Below the pieces are notes generated by a model. That model worked only from the letters and a program-made list of their open reading frames with translations, made no database searches and was not told the origin of the DNA. This document shows positions 29,350 to 38,073 of a stretch of DNA of 64,000 nt, one piece after another (the stretch's first letter is position 1; the number at the start of each line of letters is the position of its first letter). The translations under genes were made by a program, and so were the position numbers. This stretch comes from Halorubrum sp. GN11_10-6_MGM. GTDB taxonomy: Archaea > Halobacteriota > Halobacteria > Halobacteriales > Haloferacaceae. Where the stretch lies: positions 1 to 64,000 of the forward strand of contig NZ_SGUC01000011.1 of assembly GCF_005435165.1 (NCBI RefSeq). The letters run 5' to 3'.

Positions 29350-31239
29350 TCAGTCGTCTGCGTCGGTCGCCGCGGCGAAATCGATCGGTCGATCGTCCGT
29401 CGGGGTCGCGTCGTCGACGACGGCCGCGAGGTCGAGCCGATCGAGCGTCTCCGGCGTCGGGAGCCCGTTTTCGCCCCAGCCGCGCGCCGCGTAGTAGCGG
29501 TCGAGCAGGCGGTCGAACGCGTCGGCGTCGACGCCCGGCGTCCCGTCGGGCGCGGACCTGCGGAGCGGCTCGGGGAGCGCGTCGTCCGCGCGGTCGAACC
29601 CCTCTCGGGCGTTGAACAGCCGCGTCAGCGTCCAGATCCGCTCTCCCGTCGTCGCCAGCGTGGCGACCGGGTCGGTCGGCGCGGCGGGATCGCCCTCGGG
29701 AGCGACGTCGGCGACCGCGGGGTGGTCGACCGCCGCGAGCCACTCCGCGCCGAGGTCGGCCCAGACCGCCTCGCCGACGAAGTCGTCGACGACCAGACTC
29801 CACAGCAGGGACCGGGCGTTCTGCTCGCCGACGACGTCGCGCACCCGGTCGGCGGGCGAGCGGCCGGGGCGGGCGAGCGGCTCGCGGTCCTGCGGTCGCG
29901 CCCGGCGGTGACACGCGCCGCGGTCGCTCGTCGCGTACGCGAGCGCGACGCCGACCGCGGCGCGCGGGTCGAAGCCGGGCAGCGCCATCGACTTCACCGT
30001 GGGAACGAGTTCCGCGCCGCCGAACCGGGCGACTGCGGCGTCAATTCCGTCCGCGAGCGCGTCGGGGAGGCCGGGGGCGACCTCGAAGTCGGACGGCGCC
30101 TCGCGAGCCGCGATCGCTTTTAAGAGGCGCTCGGCGCCCGTCGCGTCGCCGAACGACACCGAACAGTCGACGACTCCCGCTTCCCCCGCACGGATCGCCC
30201 ACGCGACCGCGTTGCCAGCCCCGATCACGTCGAGTCCGAGCCGGTCGCAGACCCCGCAGAGGTCGACGACGCGGTCGAAGTCGTCGATGCCGAGACCGGC
30301 GCCGAGGGTGATCGGCGCCGCGCCGCGCGGGATCACCTCGCCGTCCGGCGTGTCGATCCGGAAGCCGCCGGGGACGGCGAATTCTTCCCCGTCGCCGGCT
30401 TCGGCGACTCCCTCGCGGCCCGTCGCGCGCTCTATTGCGGCCTCGACGCCGATGTCGTCCGCCCCGTCGAAGCCGGTCCCCGTCCACCCCTCGGCCGCGA
30501 GGATGCCGACCTCGTCGGCGTAGTCGACCGTCTCGACCGTCTCGCCGGCCGCCTGCCACTCGCCGGTCGGATCGTCGCCGTAGGCCGCGGCGTCGCGGTC
30601 GCGGAGCGCGGCGAGGTCGTCGGGGACCGTCGGCGCCGGGTCGCGGGCGACGACCGCCTTGAGGCGCTTCGAGCCCATGACTGCGCCGGCGCCGCCGCGA
30701 CCGGCGTGGTGGGCGCCGCCGTCGCTCGCGACCGTCGCGTACGCGGCCTCGCGCTCGCCCGCCGGGCCGACGCAGGCGACCCCGGCGTCCGGGAACCGCT
30801 CGGCCGTCTCGGCGGCGTCGGCGCCCCACGCGTCGCTCGGTTCGATCCGGGCTCGACCCGCCTCGATCTCGATCCGAACCGGACGCTCGGCGGCGCCGGT
30901 CACGAGCAGGCCGAGGCAGTCGTCCAGCGACCCGGCGAGCCGGTCGGCGAAGTCGCCGCCGGCGTACGAGTCGAGGAAGCCGCCGGTGAGCGGCGACTTC
31001 GTCACCGCGGCGTAGCGCGTCTCGCCCGGGAGGTACCCCGCGAGCGGCCCGACGAACAAGGCGAGGAGGTTCGCCGGTCCCGTCGGGTCCGCCCCCGGCG
31101 ACAGCTCCTCGTAGAGGTAGCGCGCCCCGAGCCCCTTCCCGCCGACGTAGTCGCGTCGCCACTCTCGCGGGACGCGCTCGCGGGCGGTCTCCCCCGTCGA
31201 GAGGTCGACGCGGAGGACGCGGGTGCGGCTTCGACGCAT
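29350..31239 (-). CDS. Aldehyde ferredoxin oxidoreductase family protein lacking cluster cysteines
   Basis: This 629-residue AOR-like protein has an N-terminal beta domain with YVGGKGLGARYLYEE and FVGPLAGYLPGETRYAAVTKSP. The pterin-binding RGGAGAVMGSKRLKA is at 181-195, and GLDVIGAGNAVAWAI and RGACHRRARP follow. Canonical family members bind one [4Fe-4S] cluster through CX2CX3C (around 288-295 in the archetype) and a later Cys in a GLC motif. Here the matching stretches, about 275-300 and 478-490, contain no cysteine. The C-X2-C at 328-331 aligns with a different conserved position. It may bind tungstopterin without the cluster, or do something else. A YqeC-like gene is divergent from it. Confidence 0.8.
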   Translation of the reverse strand: MRRSRTRVLRVDLSTGETARERVPREWRRDYVGGKGLGARYLYEELSPGADPTGPANLLALFVGPLAGYLPGETRYAAVTKSPLTGGFLDSYAGGDFADRLAGSLDDCLGLLVTGAAERPVRIEIEAGRARIEPSDAWGADAAETAERFPDAGVACVGPAGEREAAYATVASDGGAHHAGRGGAGAVMGSKRLKAVVARDPAPTVPDDLAALRDRDAAAYGDDPTGEWQAAGETVETVDYADEVGILAAEGWTGTGFDGADDIGVEAAIERATGREGVAEAGDGEEFAVPGGFRIDTPDGEVIPRGAAPITLGAGLGIDDFDRVVDLCGVCDRLGLDVIGAGNAVAWAIRAGEAGVVDCSVSFGDATGAERLLKAIAAREAPSDFEVAPGLPDALADGIDAAVARFGGAELVPTVKSMALPGFDPRAAVGVALAYATSDRGACHRRARPQDREPLARPGRSPADRVRDVVGEQNARSLLWSLVVDDFVGEAVWADLGAEWLAAVDHPAVADVAPEGDPAAPTDPVATLATTGERIWTLTRLFNAREGFDRADDALPEPLRRSAPDGTPGVDADAFDRLLDRYYAARGWGENGLPTPETLDRLDLAAVVDDATPTDDRPIDFAAATDADD

Positions 31240-31358: not shown

Positions 31359-31415
31359 CGGCGCGGCGTCGGCCCGACCGTTAGAGTGAGGCCGCCGGCG
31401 ACCGAACGCCGGGCC

Positions 31416-32147
31416 ATGGACTTCACGACCGCGCTCGACGCCCGGGACGCGACCGTCTGCGTCGTCGGGGCGGGCGGCAAGAAGTCGACGCTGTTCGCGC
31501 TCGCCGACCGGCTCGACCGGCCGGTCGTGACCGCGAGCGTCCGGATACCGATCTTCGACGACCGCGTCGCCGCGGTGCGCGTCACCGAGGACCCCGTGGC
31601 CGCGCTCGACGAGGCGGGCGAGGGCGATTGGCCGCTCGGGCTGGTCCCCGAGCGCGAGCGATCCGACCGGTACCTCGGGTACGACGCCGACACCGTCGCC
31701 GAGATCGCCGACGCGGCGCCCGGCGCGACGCTCGTGAAGGCGGACGGGGCGCGCCTCCGCGAGTTCAAGGCGCCCGCCGAACACGAGCCGCAGATCCCGG
31801 AGAACGCCGACGTCGTCGTCCCGATCGCCAGCGCGCACGTCGTCGGCGAGCCGCTCACCGAGGAGCTCGTCCACCGGCCGGAGGAGGTCGCCGCGATCAC
31901 CGGTCGCGAGATCGGCGACGAGCTCCGCCCCGCGGACGTCTCGACCGTCCTCGCGAGCCCCGCCGGCGGGCTGAAGGGCGTCCCGAGCGGCGCGACGGCG
32001 ATCCCTGTCGTGAACAAGGTCGACGACGAGGCGGACGCGACCGCGGCCCGCGCGGTCGCCGGGGAGATCCTCCACCGCGCGAACGTGCCGCGCGTCGTCC
32101 TCACGCGCCTGATCGCGGACGACCCCGTCGTCGAGGTCGTCGAGTAG
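31416..32147 (+). CDS. yqeC: YqeC-like selenium/molybdenum cofactor protein
   Basis: This 243-residue P-loop-like protein has an N-terminal nucleotide site VVGAGGKKSTLFALA, an ADGARLREFKAP motif and VVNKVDDE near the end. This is the pattern of YqeC, which is linked in bacteria to selenium-dependent molybdenum hydroxylases. The ATG at 31416 is chosen over an earlier open frame. No molybdenum hydroxylase is present in the window, but an AOR-like gene lies next to it in divergent orientation. Confidence 0.75.
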   Translation: MDFTTALDARDATVCVVGAGGKKSTLFALADRLDRPVVTASVRIPIFDDRVAAVRVTEDPVAALDEAGEGDWPLGLVPERERSDRYLGYDADTVAEIADAAPGATLVKADGARLREFKAPAEHEPQIPENADVVVPIASAHVVGEPLTEELVHRPEEVAAITGREIGDELRPADVSTVLASPAGGLKGVPSGATAIPVVNKVDDEADATAARAVAGEILHRANVPRVVLTRLIADDPVVEVVE

Positions 32148-32150
32148 GGC

Positions 32151-32777
32151 TCACGGAGCGTCGGCCGGAGCGTCCGAGAACGACCGCCACAGCGCCCGGT
32201 ACAGCGTCCACGCGTCGACGCCGGTCCGGTCCATCACGGCCCGACAGGCGTCGTCGAACCGGCGGTAGTCGGCCGCCGAGGGCGGGTCCGGGTAGTCGCC
32301 GTCGAGCTCGCCGGCCGCGGCCAACACCGTCCACGTCCGGCGGTCGATCGCGACGAACCGCGACGGGGCGAGGAACTGGCAGAACCCGGACGCGACCGCG
32401 ACGTCGACCCCGTCGAGCGCGGTGAGCGCGTCGAGGGCGGCGTCGACGTCCAGTTCGTCGTCGTGTTGCGTCCCCACCGCCTCCACTGCTCCCATCGCCC
32501 CCACCGCGTCGACCGCGGCGTCGAGCGCGTCGATCACGTCGTCGAACGCGTTGTCGCGGAACGCCTCCTCCCGCTCGCGCCGCACCCGGTCCGGGTACTC
32601 CCCGAGGTACCGCCGGAAGTACCACCGGACGATCCACTGGGCGTCCCGGCGCCCGTACTCGTCGCCCGCGAACGTCATCGGGACCGTCTCGACGTGCTGG
32701 CGCTCCACGTCGTACAGCGGCTCCGCCTCGGCGTACTCCCGGGCGCGGTCCCGGATCGTCGACTCGCTCAGGTCCAT
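32151..32777 (-). CDS. Hypothetical protein, possibly helix-hairpin-helix
   Basis: This 208-residue acidic, helical protein includes [20 protein letters not shown] and [10 protein letters not shown], which resemble the helix-hairpin-helix region of DNA glycosylase-type proteins. No catalytic lysine or aspartate of that family can be assigned with confidence. It ends three bases from the YqeC stop (convergent) and is divergent from the CobW gene. Function unknown. Confidence 0.6.
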
Positions 32778-32866
32778 CGCGCTGCGGTACGGCGGTGGGA
32801 CGGATGAACGTTCGTCTCATCAACCTGATCGATCGTTTCATACAGCCGTGGCCACTGGTAGCACAC

Positions 32867-33997
32867 ATGACAGACTCCCGTATCCCGGTCACCGTCCTCA
32901 GCGGCTACCTCGGTGCCGGGAAGACGACGCTCGTGAACCACCTGCTCGCGAACCCCGGCGACCGGCGGATCGCTGTCATCCTGAACGACATGGGCGAGGT
33001 GAACGTCGACGCGGACCAGATCGCCCGCGAGAACGACGAGGAGGGGGTCGTCGACCTCTCGAACGGCTGTATCTGCTGCCGGCTCCAGGACGACCTGCTC
33101 TCGGAGGCGGCGGCGCTGGCGGACTCCCGGGAGTTCGACTACCTCCTCGTGGAGTCGTCGGGCATCTCGGAGCCCGTCCCGATCGCGCGGGCGTTCACCG
33201 AGGGCACCGCGGACAGCGACGTCGACCCCCGGGAGCGGTTCCGGCTCGACACGATGGTGACCGTCCTCGACGCCTACGGCTTCTGGAAGGAGTTCGACGC
33301 GGGCGAGACGCTTCCGGGCGGAGCGGAGCCCGAGACCGACCGGCCGCTCGCCGACGTGCTCGTCGAGGGGATCGAGTTCTGTGACGTCCTCCTCGTGAAC
33401 AAGACCGACATGGTCCCCGACGACGTGCTCGACCGGATCGAGTCGGTCGCGGAGCGGCTGGGACCGCGGGCGAAGCGGATCCGGACCACCTACTCCGCGG
33501 TCGACCCCGACGAGGTGCTCGACACCGGGCGGTTCGACTTCGAGGCGGCGAAGGGGTCGGCGGGCTGGAAGCGCGCCATCGCCGACGAGGAAGCCGGAGG
33601 GCACGACCACGACTGGGAGGAGAGCGGCGGCCACGACCACGCCCATCCCGAAGGGGCGGCCGCCGCCCACGGGGTCGGATCGTTCGTCTACCGCTCCGGC
33701 GACCCGCTGGACCCGGGCGCGCTCGCCGAGTGGCTCGACGACTGGGACGGGTCGATCATCCGCGCGAAGGGCGTGGTCCGAGTGGCGGGCACCGACGAGG
33801 TGATCGGGGTGAGTCAGGCCGGGCCGTCGGTTCAGGCCGGGCCGATCGGCGAGTGGGGGCCCGAGGACGACCGTCGGACGCGGCTGGTGTTCATCGGCGA
33901 GGACCTCGACGAGGCGCGGATCCGGACGGAGCTGACCGGGCTCGTCGCGGACGGGGACGACCCGACGGCCGACCCGGACGCGGTGTTTCCGGTTTAG
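32867..33997 (+). CDS. CobW/COG0523-family GTPase (metallochaperone)
   Basis: This 376-residue P-loop GTPase is of the type that delivers zinc, cobalt or iron to target enzymes. Walker A is GYLGAGKTT, the metal site motif is GCICC (CxCC) and the specificity motif is NKTD. A His/Asp-rich loop (around residues 244-265) contains HDHD and HDHAH and is likely a metal reservoir. The C-terminal CobW domain follows. The ATG at 32867 is preferred to an upstream in-frame ATG because [13 protein letters not shown]-type N-termini start here. Confidence 0.9.
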
Positions 33998-34553: not shown

Positions 34554-35723
34554 TCAGGGCTCCAGCAGGACCTTCGTGACGCCCTCCTCGCGGGCGTCGA
34601 ACGCCTCGTACATCTCCGGCGCCTCTTCGAGGTCGACCCGGTGCGAGACGACCCAGCTCGGGTCGGCGCGGCCCTCGATGATCATGTCGCGCAGGTACCG
34701 GTTGTACTCTTTCACGTTACACTGACCGGTCCCGCACTTGAGCCCCTTCTCGAAGAACTTCCCGAAGTCGATACCGAGCCGCCCCTGTGCGGCCATGTCG
34801 TCGGGCGCGCCGGGGTCCTCCGGAACGTACAGCCCGGGGACGCCGAGCTGGCCGGTCGGACGGACGACCCGGATCAGGTTGTTGAGGACGACCGCCGGGT
34901 TCTCCTTGGCCGGCTGGTAGGAGTAGTCCTCCGTGTCCTGGTCGACGTCGTCGGGGTCGGTCGCCTGATACCCGACCGCGTCGACGCCCTTGTCGACCAT
35001 CCCGCCGTGTTCCTCGATGATCTGGTCGACCGGGTCGCCCTCGGAGAAGTCGATGGCGTGCGCGTCGCAGTGCTCCTCCGCGAGCTCCAGTCGGCTCGGT
35101 ACCTGGTCGACGACGTAGATCTCCGCTGCGCCCTTGATCTTCGCGCTGTAGGCGGCCATCAGGCCGACCGGGCCGGCGCCGAAGATGGCGACCGACTCGC
35201 CCGGCTGGAGGTCCGCCAGCTCGGTGCCGTGCCACCCGGTCGGGAAGATGTCCGCGAGCAGCGAGAACGCGTCCTCGTGTTCGCGCCCCTCGGGCAGCTT
35301 CAGGGCGTTGTGGTCGGCGTACGGGACGCGCAGTTTCTCGGCCTGTCCGCCCGGATACGGGCCCATGGCCACGTAGCCGTACGCGCCGCCCGCGAACCCG
35401 GGGTTGACGTTGGTACAGAAGCCGGTGAACCCTTCCTCGCAGTTCTGACAGAAGCCACAGGAGACGTTGAACGGCATGACGACGCGGTCGCCCTCCTCTA
35501 ACGTCGATACGGCCTCCCCTACCTCGCTGACGATCCCCATGTTCTCGTGACCGAAGACGATCCCCTCCTCGGCCGCGGTCCGCCCCTCGTACATGTGGAG
35601 GTCGGAGCCACAGATACAGGACGTCGTGATGTCGACGACGACGTCGTTCGGGTGTTCGATCTCCGGTTCGTCCACGTCCTCGACGGCCACCTCGTAGGGG
35701 CCCTGATAGACAACTGCTCTCAT
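34554..35723 (-). CDS. fdhA: Glutathione-independent formaldehyde dehydrogenase
   Basis: This enzyme oxidises formaldehyde to formate with NAD, using a catalytic zinc. It has 389 residues of the medium-chain dehydrogenase fold. The catalytic zinc region is CICGSDLHMYEGR with HENMG, the structural zinc site is CGFCQNCEEGFTGFC, and the Rossmann motif is GAGPVGLMAAYSA. The insert NPGFAGGAYGYVAMGPYPGG marks the glutathione-independent type. A TATA-like ATTTACTATG (35754-35763, minus) lies about 31-40 bp before the ATG. It shares its promoter region with the formate dehydrogenase gene. Confidence 0.92.
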   Translation of the reverse strand: MRAVVYQGPYEVAVEDVDEPEIEHPNDVVVDITTSCICGSDLHMYEGRTAAEEGIVFGHENMGIVSEVGEAVSTLEEGDRVVMPFNVSCGFCQNCEEGFTGFCTNVNPGFAGGAYGYVAMGPYPGGQAEKLRVPYADHNALKLPEGREHEDAFSLLADIFPTGWHGTELADLQPGESVAIFGAGPVGLMAAYSAKIKGAAEIYVVDQVPSRLELAEEHCDAHAIDFSEGDPVDQIIEEHGGMVDKGVDAVGYQATDPDDVDQDTEDYSYQPAKENPAVVLNNLIRVVRPTGQLGVPGLYVPEDPGAPDDMAAQGRLGIDFGKFFEKGLKCGTGQCNVKEYNRYLRDMIIEGRADPSWVVSHRVDLEEAPEMYEAFDAREEGVTKVLLEP

Positions 35724-35931
35724 GTTGGTTCCGATTGTATCGTGTTAACAAACCATAGTAAATGTTTTTCCATGATATTTCACGGTTAATATGAATTGCC
35801 TTGATTTTGTTAATCGGTGACTCGCCCCGAACGGGGATCACCGGGGCCGTTTCCCGGGCGCCCCACCGACACACTCATGAATTGTGACGATGAATCATGT
35901 TATATGTACGCACACAACGGTGGTGGGCTCG
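35724..35931. promoter_or_regulatory. Shared divergent promoter of fdhA and fdhF
   Basis: This 208-bp gap is markedly A+T-rich for this genome. It holds the fdhA TATA box (35754-35763) and the fdhF TATA box GTTATATGTA (about 35898-35907). An imperfect inverted pair CATGA...TCATG spans about 35876-35899, immediately upstream of the fdhF TATA box, with two ATGAAT copies in it. A GTTAAC palindrome lies near 35742. These are candidates for a common operator responding to C1 compounds (inference). Confidence 0.6.
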
Positions 35932-38073
35932 ATGTCCAGTGAACCGGACGACGCGACGAAGACGATCTGTCCGTACTGCGGCGTCGGCTGCGGGATCCGC
36001 GTGCTGGAGGGCGACGAGCCGGGCGAGATGCGCTTCATGCCGTGGGCCGACGCGCCGGTGAACGAGGGGAGCGTCTGTATCAAGGGCGGGGCGGCGACGC
36101 AGGTCGTCGACCACGAGGACCGGCTGACGGAGCCGTTGATAAAGGAGGACGGCGAGTTCCGCGAGGCGACCTGGTCCGAGGCGCTCGACCGCGTCGTCGA
36201 CGAGATGGAGGGAATCCGCGACCGACACGGCCCGGACGGGATGGGATTCTTCGGCTCCTCGAAGACGTTCAACGAGGAGAACTACCTCATCCAGAAGCTG
36301 GCGCGGCGGTACGGCACCAATCAGGTCGACAACTGTACGCGCATGTGTCACGCCTCCACCGTCTGGGCGCTGCGGACCAGCCTCGGGATGGGCGCGATGA
36401 CGAACAGCATGGCCGACCTGGAGGACTCGGCGGACGTGCTGTGGATCCAGGGCGCGAACCCGGGCGAGCAGCACCCGATCGCCAACAGCCAGTACTTCAG
36501 GCAGGCCGTACTGGAGGGCGCGACGGTCATTCAGGTCGACCCGCACGCGAACAAGACCACCCGGTCGTTCGAGATCGACGAGACCGACCGGCACATGCAC
36601 CTCCAGCTGAAACCCGGCACCGACATCCCCCTGTTGAACATCGTCCTCAAGACGATCTTAGAGCGCCACGAGGAGGACCCCGACGCGGGCTGGATCGACG
36701 AGGCGTTCGTGGAGGAGCGCACCAAGGGGTTCGACCACCTGAAAGAGACGCTCGCGGACTTCGACGTGGAGGCGGCCGCCGAGGAGTGCGGCGTGCCGCT
36801 CGAAGACATCGAGCTCGCCGCCGAGAAGTACGCGATGGCCAACGACGCCGCCATCTTCACCGGGATGGGGATGAGCCAGCACACCTGCGGCGTCGACAAC
36901 GTCCAAAACGAGATCAACCTCGCGCTGATCACGGGGAACCTCGGCCGCCCGGGCACGGGCGTCAACCCCCTGCGCGGACAGAACAACGTTCAGGGCACCT
37001 GCGACGTCGGCGCGATGCCGAACGTCCTCCCGGGGTACCAGCTCGTCGACGACGACGAGGCCCGCGAGTCCGTCGAGGACGTGTGGGGCTTCGAGGTCCC
37101 CTCGGAGCCGGGGCTGACGAACGTCGAGATCTCGCACGCGATCGGCGACACCGTCCACGGGCTCTACGTCATGGGCGAGAACCCGATCATGAGCGAGCCC
37201 GACGGCAACGAGACGGAGCGCCGGTTCCGCGAGGAGCTCGACTTCATGGTGGTCCAGGACATCTTCATGACCGAGACCGCCGAACTCGCGGACGTGGTCC
37301 TCCCGGCGACCACGTGGGCCGAGCGCGACGGCACCGTCACCAACACCGACCGCCGCGTCCAGCGCATGCGCGGCGTCCACAAGGTCCACGAGAACACGCG
37401 CCACGACCTCGACATCCTCTGTGAGGTCGGCGACCGACTGTTCGACGGCGACGAGTTCGACTTCGACGGCCCCGAGGACGTGTTCGAGGAGCTCCGCGAG
37501 GTGTGCCCGATCATGCACGGGATGACCTACGACGCGCTCGGCGAGACGGGGATCCACTGGCCCTGCTACGAGGAGGGCGACGAGGGCGACTCGTACCTCT
37601 ACGAAGACGAGTTCGAGACCGACGACGGCCTCGGTCGCATCGAGGGCGTCGTCCACCAGGAGCCGAAGGAGGTCCCCGACGAGGAGTACCCGCTCGTACT
37701 CACGACGGCCCGGCTCGAGGAACACTACAACACGGGGACGATGAGCCGGCGGTCGCCGACGCTCTCGAACCAACACCCGGAGAACTTCGTCGACATCCAC
37801 CCGAACGACGCCGAGCGGTACGGGATCGAGGACGGCGACGACGTGGTTCTCAAGTCCCGCCGCGGGGAGATCACCGTCCGCGCCGACGTCACCGAGGACA
37901 TCAAGGAGGGCGTCGTCTGGACCACGCCCCACTTCGCGGCCGCCTCCGCGAACCGCCTCACCAACGACGTGCTCGACGAGCGCGCCAAGATCCCCGAGTA
38001 CAAGGCCGCGGCCGCCGAGATCGAGGTCGGCATCGAGGCCGCGGGCGACGACGCGGCGTCCGCCGACGACTGA
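35932..38073 (+). CDS. fdhF: Formate dehydrogenase catalytic subunit FdhF
   Basis: This molybdopterin oxidoreductase oxidises formate to CO2. It has 713 residues. The [4Fe-4S] site is C13-x2-C16-x3-C20...C49 (CPYCGVGC and SVCIKGG). The active-site residue is Cys139 in the CTRMCHAS motif, so this is the cysteine rather than selenocysteine form. The molybdopterin dinucleotide domain ends in TGTMSRRSPTL and LKSRRGEITVRA. The start at 35932 is preferred to an in-frame ATG at 35884 because the TATA box lies between them. No beta subunit is adjacent. Confidence 0.93.
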   Translation: MSSEPDDATKTICPYCGVGCGIRVLEGDEPGEMRFMPWADAPVNEGSVCIKGGAATQVVDHEDRLTEPLIKEDGEFREATWSEALDRVVDEMEGIRDRHGPDGMGFFGSSKTFNEENYLIQKLARRYGTNQVDNCTRMCHASTVWALRTSLGMGAMTNSMADLEDSADVLWIQGANPGEQHPIANSQYFRQAVLEGATVIQVDPHANKTTRSFEIDETDRHMHLQLKPGTDIPLLNIVLKTILERHEEDPDAGWIDEAFVEERTKGFDHLKETLADFDVEAAAEECGVPLEDIELAAEKYAMANDAAIFTGMGMSQHTCGVDNVQNEINLALITGNLGRPGTGVNPLRGQNNVQGTCDVGAMPNVLPGYQLVDDDEARESVEDVWGFEVPSEPGLTNVEISHAIGDTVHGLYVMGENPIMSEPDGNETERRFREELDFMVVQDIFMTETAELADVVLPATTWAERDGTVTNTDRRVQRMRGVHKVHENTRHDLDILCEVGDRLFDGDEFDFDGPEDVFEELREVCPIMHGMTYDALGETGIHWPCYEEGDEGDSYLYEDEFETDDGLGRIEGVVHQEPKEVPDEEYPLVLTTARLEEHYNTGTMSRRSPTLSNQHPENFVDIHPNDAERYGIEDGDDVVLKSRRGEITVRADVTEDIKEGVVWTTPHFAAASANRLTNDVLDERAKIPEYKAAAAEIEVGIEAAGDDAASADD

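Follow-up and report, generated by a model that had tools for sequence, protein, structure and literature searches.

The aorX locus

The window is the whole stretch of DNA that was analysed, 64,000 nucleotides of contig NZ_SGUC01000011.1 from Halorubrum sp. GN11_10-6_MGM. It encodes a protein of the aldehyde ferredoxin oxidoreductase (AOR) family, here called AORx, and the alpha subunit of a formate dehydrogenase (FDH). The features considered are listed below with their coordinates and strand.

29350..31239, minus: AORx, 629 aa, an AOR-fold protein lacking the [4Fe-4S] cysteines (Pfam AFOR_N and AFOR_C, AF2 model, 1aor superposition)
29785..29802, minus: AORx residues 480-485, from an invariant Trp480 (PfAOR D489; W in 75/75) to an invariant Asp485 (fourth cluster cysteine, Cys494; D in 75/75)
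30319..30330, minus: AORx residues 304-307 (PRGA); the matching stretch of ordinary AORs is P-E-Y-E and includes the catalytic Glu313 in PfAOR numbering (alignment, 75 vs 48)
30367..30417, minus: AORx residues 275-291 (approximately), a short loop without cysteine in place of the CxxCxxxC ligands (75 clade members aligned with 48 other sequences; pLDDT <50)
31386..32147, plus: YqeC, divergent neighbour of AORx, with GAGGKKS P-loop-like and NKVD motifs (TIGR03172, 169 bits, cut-off 73)
32151..32777, minus: 208-aa protein found beside FdhA/YqeC in related loci (neighbourhood clustering, cluster c9)
32795..33997, plus: CobW/ZigA-like GTPase of the metallochaperone family (Pfam cobW and CobW_C; NCBIfam ZigA, 308 bits, below cut-off)
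34554..35723, minus: zinc alcohol dehydrogenase, formaldehyde dehydrogenase-like (TIGR02819, 335 bits, below the cut-off of 637)
35884..38073, plus: FdhA, FDH alpha subunit of the Cys type, NCTRMCHAS (TIGR01591, 728 bits, cut-off 666; active-site alignment)

The AORx reading frame fills its interval exactly, is intact and starts with ATG. FdhA lies 4.6 kb from AORx and carries the Cys-His active site and RGxNNVQG motif of a formate dehydrogenase. Two additional AORs are encoded in the same genome, each with all four cluster cysteines.

Fold and iron-sulfur ligands of AORx

AFOR_N (197 bits) and AFOR_C (223 bits) jointly spanned residues 7-604. The AlphaFold (AF2) model had a pLDDT of 90.3 and a pTM of 0.92 and was superposed on 1aor over 565 residues (Z 45.5, rmsd 2.0 Å). 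AORx aligned with 1aor and other solved AORs from end to end, and by both domains and fold it is a homologue within the AOR/WOR family. The full-length fold is common to PfAOR (1aor), PfFOR (1b25) and Haloferax volcanii WOR83 (9q1t), as are R76, D343, H448 and T243. The sequence-only reading had recognised a pterin-binding half. The whole AOR fold, and not that half alone, is recognisable, and the catalytic E313 has been lost too. The benzoyl-CoA reductase subunit BamB (4z3w) also has the fold (Z 35.5) and is a precedent for non-aldehyde functions in the family. Unlike AORx, BamB presumably retains its cluster ligands.

A set of 75 distinct AORx sequences and 48 other AORs, to which genomes of the same order and the same phylum contributed, was used for alignment. 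PfAOR residue numbers were taken from the alignment of AORx with the solved AORs; those of the cluster cysteines are presumably as in the 1995 structure. In AORx the CxxCxxxC segment is reduced to a short gapped stretch and the fourth cysteine is replaced by Asp485. None of the 75 clade members has any of the four cluster cysteines, and the fourth position is Asp in all of them; the other AORs have all four in register in 47/48 cases and three in the remaining one. AORx therefore lacks the four-cysteine [4Fe-4S] site of a tungsten iron-sulfur enzyme. No other poorly defined stretch of the AlphaFold model is as long as the former cluster loop. The absence of cysteine at both ligand-bearing places, as originally noticed in this reading frame, is thus a property of the clade, far beyond chance, and not a sequencing slip.

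Displacement of the ligands to other cysteines had been named as an outcome that would overturn the reading. A cluster kept in this way could involve C108, C156, C331, C443 and D485. C156 (72/75), C331 (75/75) and C443 (75/75) are indeed conserved. However, AORs with a normal cluster share C331 (40/48) and C443 (14/48), and no more than 42/75 AORx have Cys at position 108. The three conserved cysteines do not amount to a CxxCxxxC plus C site, and the ligand loop itself is gone. Displacement was rejected because fewer than four near-invariant cysteines (only C156, C331 and C443) are to hand, and a retained cluster is very improbable.

Catalytic and cofactor-side residues

The second-shell residues of AORs have been named as T243, E313, Y427 and H448, with Glu313 universal among known AORs and central to a proposed mechanism (PMC12096430). 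The E313 position is Ala, Gly or Ser in 75/75 AORx and Glu in 48/48 other AORs, so AORx lacks the complete set. T243 and H448 were each kept in 75/75, and the Y427 position is Tyr in 63 and Phe in 12, Phe being the residue of the window protein. Because H448 and T243 remain and position 427 is still aromatic, some chemistry could persist. Next to the catalytic position, Y312 is replaced by Gly and E311 by Arg in 75/75.

R76, D343, K450 and D489 are residues that we take, from the 1995 structure, to be cofactor contacts. R76 was kept in 74/75 AORx and D343 in 75/75; D489 is Trp in 75/75. AORx thus differs from AOR/WOR enzymes in its missing [4Fe-4S] cysteines and Glu313 and in the Y312 to Gly and D489 to Trp replacements; with the putative contacts R76 and D343 kept and D489 lost, it may still bind a bis-pterin W/Mo cofactor. 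The sequence-only reading had offered another route for electrons or a new role. The former is disfavoured because the universally conserved Glu313 is also gone; the latter is favoured because AORx is linked to YqeC and formate dehydrogenase (see below), a linkage absent from that reading.

Phylogeny and selection

In 84,980 species genomes that were scanned, about 35 haloarchaeal AORx orthologues stood at 55-89% identity, with a gap below them to ordinary bacterial AORs at about 31%. When 295 genomes from the phylum were searched for AORx outside haloarchaea, none added a relative as similar as the clade members are to each other, and all 12 outgroup AORs that were aligned retain the cluster cysteines. 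In the tree the Cys-less sequences formed a single monophyletic clade (SH-aLRT 99) beside four Cys-bearing haloarchaeal AORs. The sister relation is less certain than the monophyly, since long branches, which the tree tool flags, meet there. A single old loss within haloarchaea is the simplest reading of the tree. The Cys-less homologues therefore do form their own clade with conserved cofactor-side residues, as the proposed check had asked.

The dN/dS of AORx was 0.22-0.25, which indicates purifying selection, and its reading frames are intact in dozens of genomes. A pseudogene, the other outcome that had been set against the reading, was rejected on these grounds, and a one-genome artefact was rejected on the strength of 75 sequences with a single origin. 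With the fold and Arg76, Asp343 and His448 kept under purifying selection, AORx cannot be called a pseudogene, and it is not an ordinary AOR either. Two AORx copies are present in genomes G152, G186 and G190. In G021, G033, G120, G138 and G142 AORx matched as two separate fragments, which may reflect a frameshift, an assembly error or an insertion where the cluster loop used to be.

Searched by terms, the 2026 paper that classifies WORs (PMC13328260) showed no mention of a Cys-less clade. No description of one was found in the main texts of the freely accessible papers searched. AORx would thus belong to a known fold family as an apparently undescribed clade.

Gene neighbourhood and co-inheritance

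Clustering of 28 related loci and the window gave the genes that recur near AORx: FdhA, YqeC, MobA, a TorD-like chaperone, an HdrA2/FlpD-like polyferredoxin and DUF7124, with MoaA at some loci. Comparison of the related loci showed no redox partner gene common to all AORx loci. Three types of FDH lie beside AORx: a soluble FdhA of about 720 aa (with a formamidase alongside in locus L147), a NuoG-FdhA fusion with NuoF, and a Tat-signal FdhA-like protein with TorD (with NrfD also present in locus L159).

Co-occurrence was measured in 195 genomes of the same order. AORx was present in 97, YqeC in 119 and both in 96 (96/97 of AORx genomes; Fisher 7e-32); the one genome with AORx and no YqeC is a 77% complete assembly. 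Thirty-seven genera have both and none has AORx alone. When YqeC was shuffled within genera, 84.1 ± 2.1 joint occurrences were expected against the 96 observed (p = 5e-5). The two genes lie within 1.5 kb of each other in 40/94 cases and within 6 kb in 63/94. FdhA accompanied AORx in 90/97 genomes (within-genus p = 0.0016), and in the two exceptions that were examined (loci L163 and L164) a different FdhA-like enzyme adjoins AORx. AORx is therefore associated with both YqeC and FDH. It does not merely track molybdenum cofactor synthesis, because MoaA is near universal (185/195). Co-occurrence alone is compatible with a maturation factor or a subunit and separates neither.

FDH subtypes were binned by score and ORF length. 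Counted as genomes, YqeC accompanied 37/37 long, 61/64 short, 17/17 low-scoring and 7/27 split FDHs. AORx was absent from about 16 genomes with a YqeC-linked long or short FDH and is therefore not indispensable for every such enzyme. Of the 27 genomes with the split type, 20 are without YqeC; most have neither YqeC nor AORx, and none has FdhD, so that other routes must exist. Split NAD-type FDH loci (L128-L135, L140) encode a NuoF-like protein, the N-terminal part of NuoG and an FdhA of about 760 aa. A DUF1641 protein and another FdhA-like protein, some 645 aa long, often accompany them.

FdhD and selenium-related genes

FdhD and FdsC bind bis-MGD and sulfurate it for FDHs (PMC6239281, PMC13197769). 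A 2023 review noted that FDH genes in halobacteria often occur without fdhD, and left as an open question which proteins are responsible for cofactor insertion and sulfuration (PMC10609526). None of the 195 haloarchaeal genomes gave a match to FdhD (PF02634), whereas eight control genomes, three of them archaeal, did. AORx itself matched only the AFOR families and not PF02634. It has no detected homology to FdhD/FdsC, having the AOR fold and no CxxC; the likeness is confined to the proposed role, the handling of bis-MGD for several FDHs per cell (PMC6239281). AORx might bind bis-MGD and take part in sulfur transfer to FDH.

YqeC has been described as a marker of selenium-dependent molybdenum hydroxylases (PMC2276186), and C. 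difficile lacking it had no clear phenotype (PMC11448449). The neighbour of AORx in the window passes the family model of that YqeC, but the accessory system of the hydroxylases is not present here: the window's genome has no SelD over the cut-off and no YqeB (20 bits against a cut-off of 220), and YqeC is instead linked to FDH and AORx. A selenium-cofactor role for AORx, which is in 97/195 genomes against 17/195 for true SelD, is accordingly disfavoured. YqeC alone is a poor selenium-cofactor marker in haloarchaea, since it occurs in 119 genomes and true SelD in only 17. Where gene positions were compared in SelD genomes, selD had another YqeC near it. No sequence relatives of YqeC were found in the PDB.

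Proposed role of AORx and alternatives

The reading that we tentatively favour, with belief almost evenly divided, is that AORx is a retired AOR whose bis-pterin fold has been reused, with YqeC and MobA, as a Mo/W-cofactor accessory for FDH where FdhD is undetected. AORx would have kept the pterin-cofactor pocket and given up substrate turnover. It would bind the bis-pterin Mo/W cofactor, protect it or pass it on, perhaps at the sulfuration or insertion step, and with the putative GTPase YqeC and MobA as partners the cofactor of FDH would be made or delivered. We infer cofactor binding by AORx, FDH as its client, and maturation over catalysis. A more specific form is possible, though doubtful: that AORx and YqeC are the missing system which, without FdhD, sulfurates bis-MGD, inserts it into haloarchaeal FDHs or does both, a pterin enzyme having become a cofactor chaperone. 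The chief evidence against the favoured reading is that some 16 genomes with a YqeC-linked FDH have no AORx, and that split FDHs mostly lack YqeC, AORx and FdhD alike; YqeC may therefore be the core component and AORx an enhancer. The C. difficile result for YqeC also counts against it.

AORx could instead be a non-catalytic structural or regulatory subunit of the mature FDH, acting as a scaffold or as a cofactor or metal sensor. Its equal clustering with FDH genes, its lack of an FdhD-like CxxC and its absence from some FDH genomes, as an optional subunit would be, agree with this. A structural subunit should keep to a single enzyme, however, and AORx accompanies FDHs of three different structures (soluble, NAD-linked and Tat-exported) and is tied more closely to YqeC than to FdhA; the subunit reading is considered unlikely. 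An active Mo/W enzyme without an Fe-S cluster, either non-redox or passing electrons straight to a partner, would account for the purifying selection and for the retained fold, R76, D343, H448 and T243. It is distinctly unlikely given the replacement of Glu313 in every member, the replacement of Y312 and D489, and the lack of a dedicated redox partner gene across the loci. More improbable again is service to YqeC in another cofactor pathway, such as that of a selenium- or sulfur-modified hydroxylase, with the FDH neighbourhood secondary. YqeC is the tightest association of AORx and has the hydroxylase link cited above (PMC2276186), but the scarcity of SelD and the missing YqeB speak against such a pathway, and at loci without AORx, too, YqeC is found next to FdhA.

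AORx may thus be one of the helpers that build the metal cofactor of FDH in salt-loving archaea without FdhD. For the FdhD question of the review (PMC10609526), aorX and yqeC are two candidate genes, each present in about half of the sampled haloarchaeal genomes. If the favoured role is true, AORx is an example of a tungsten enzyme converted to a helper protein. AORx genes should not be annotated as aldehyde oxidoreductases, nor haloarchaeal YqeC as a selenium marker.

Additional genes at the FDH loci

The 208-aa neighbour of YqeC had no Pfam or NCBIfam match. A PDB search gave only a weak partial match to one end of an aldo-keto reductase, and this relationship was not believed. The protein recurs beside soluble FdhA even where AORx is absent (L143-L145) and is a candidate FDH accessory gene. 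In Tat-FDH clusters a DUF7124 gene overlaps AORx or lies directly downstream of it (L117:6913-7692, L156, L157, L163, L164), and is usually followed by two small conserved genes. The CobW/ZigA-like GTPase and the zinc formaldehyde dehydrogenase-like enzyme lie between YqeC and FdhA in the window. Biofilms of Halorubrum lacusprofundi are reported to be richer in FDH, in a zinc formaldehyde dehydrogenase and in proteins that transport molybdate and zinc (PMC5118699).
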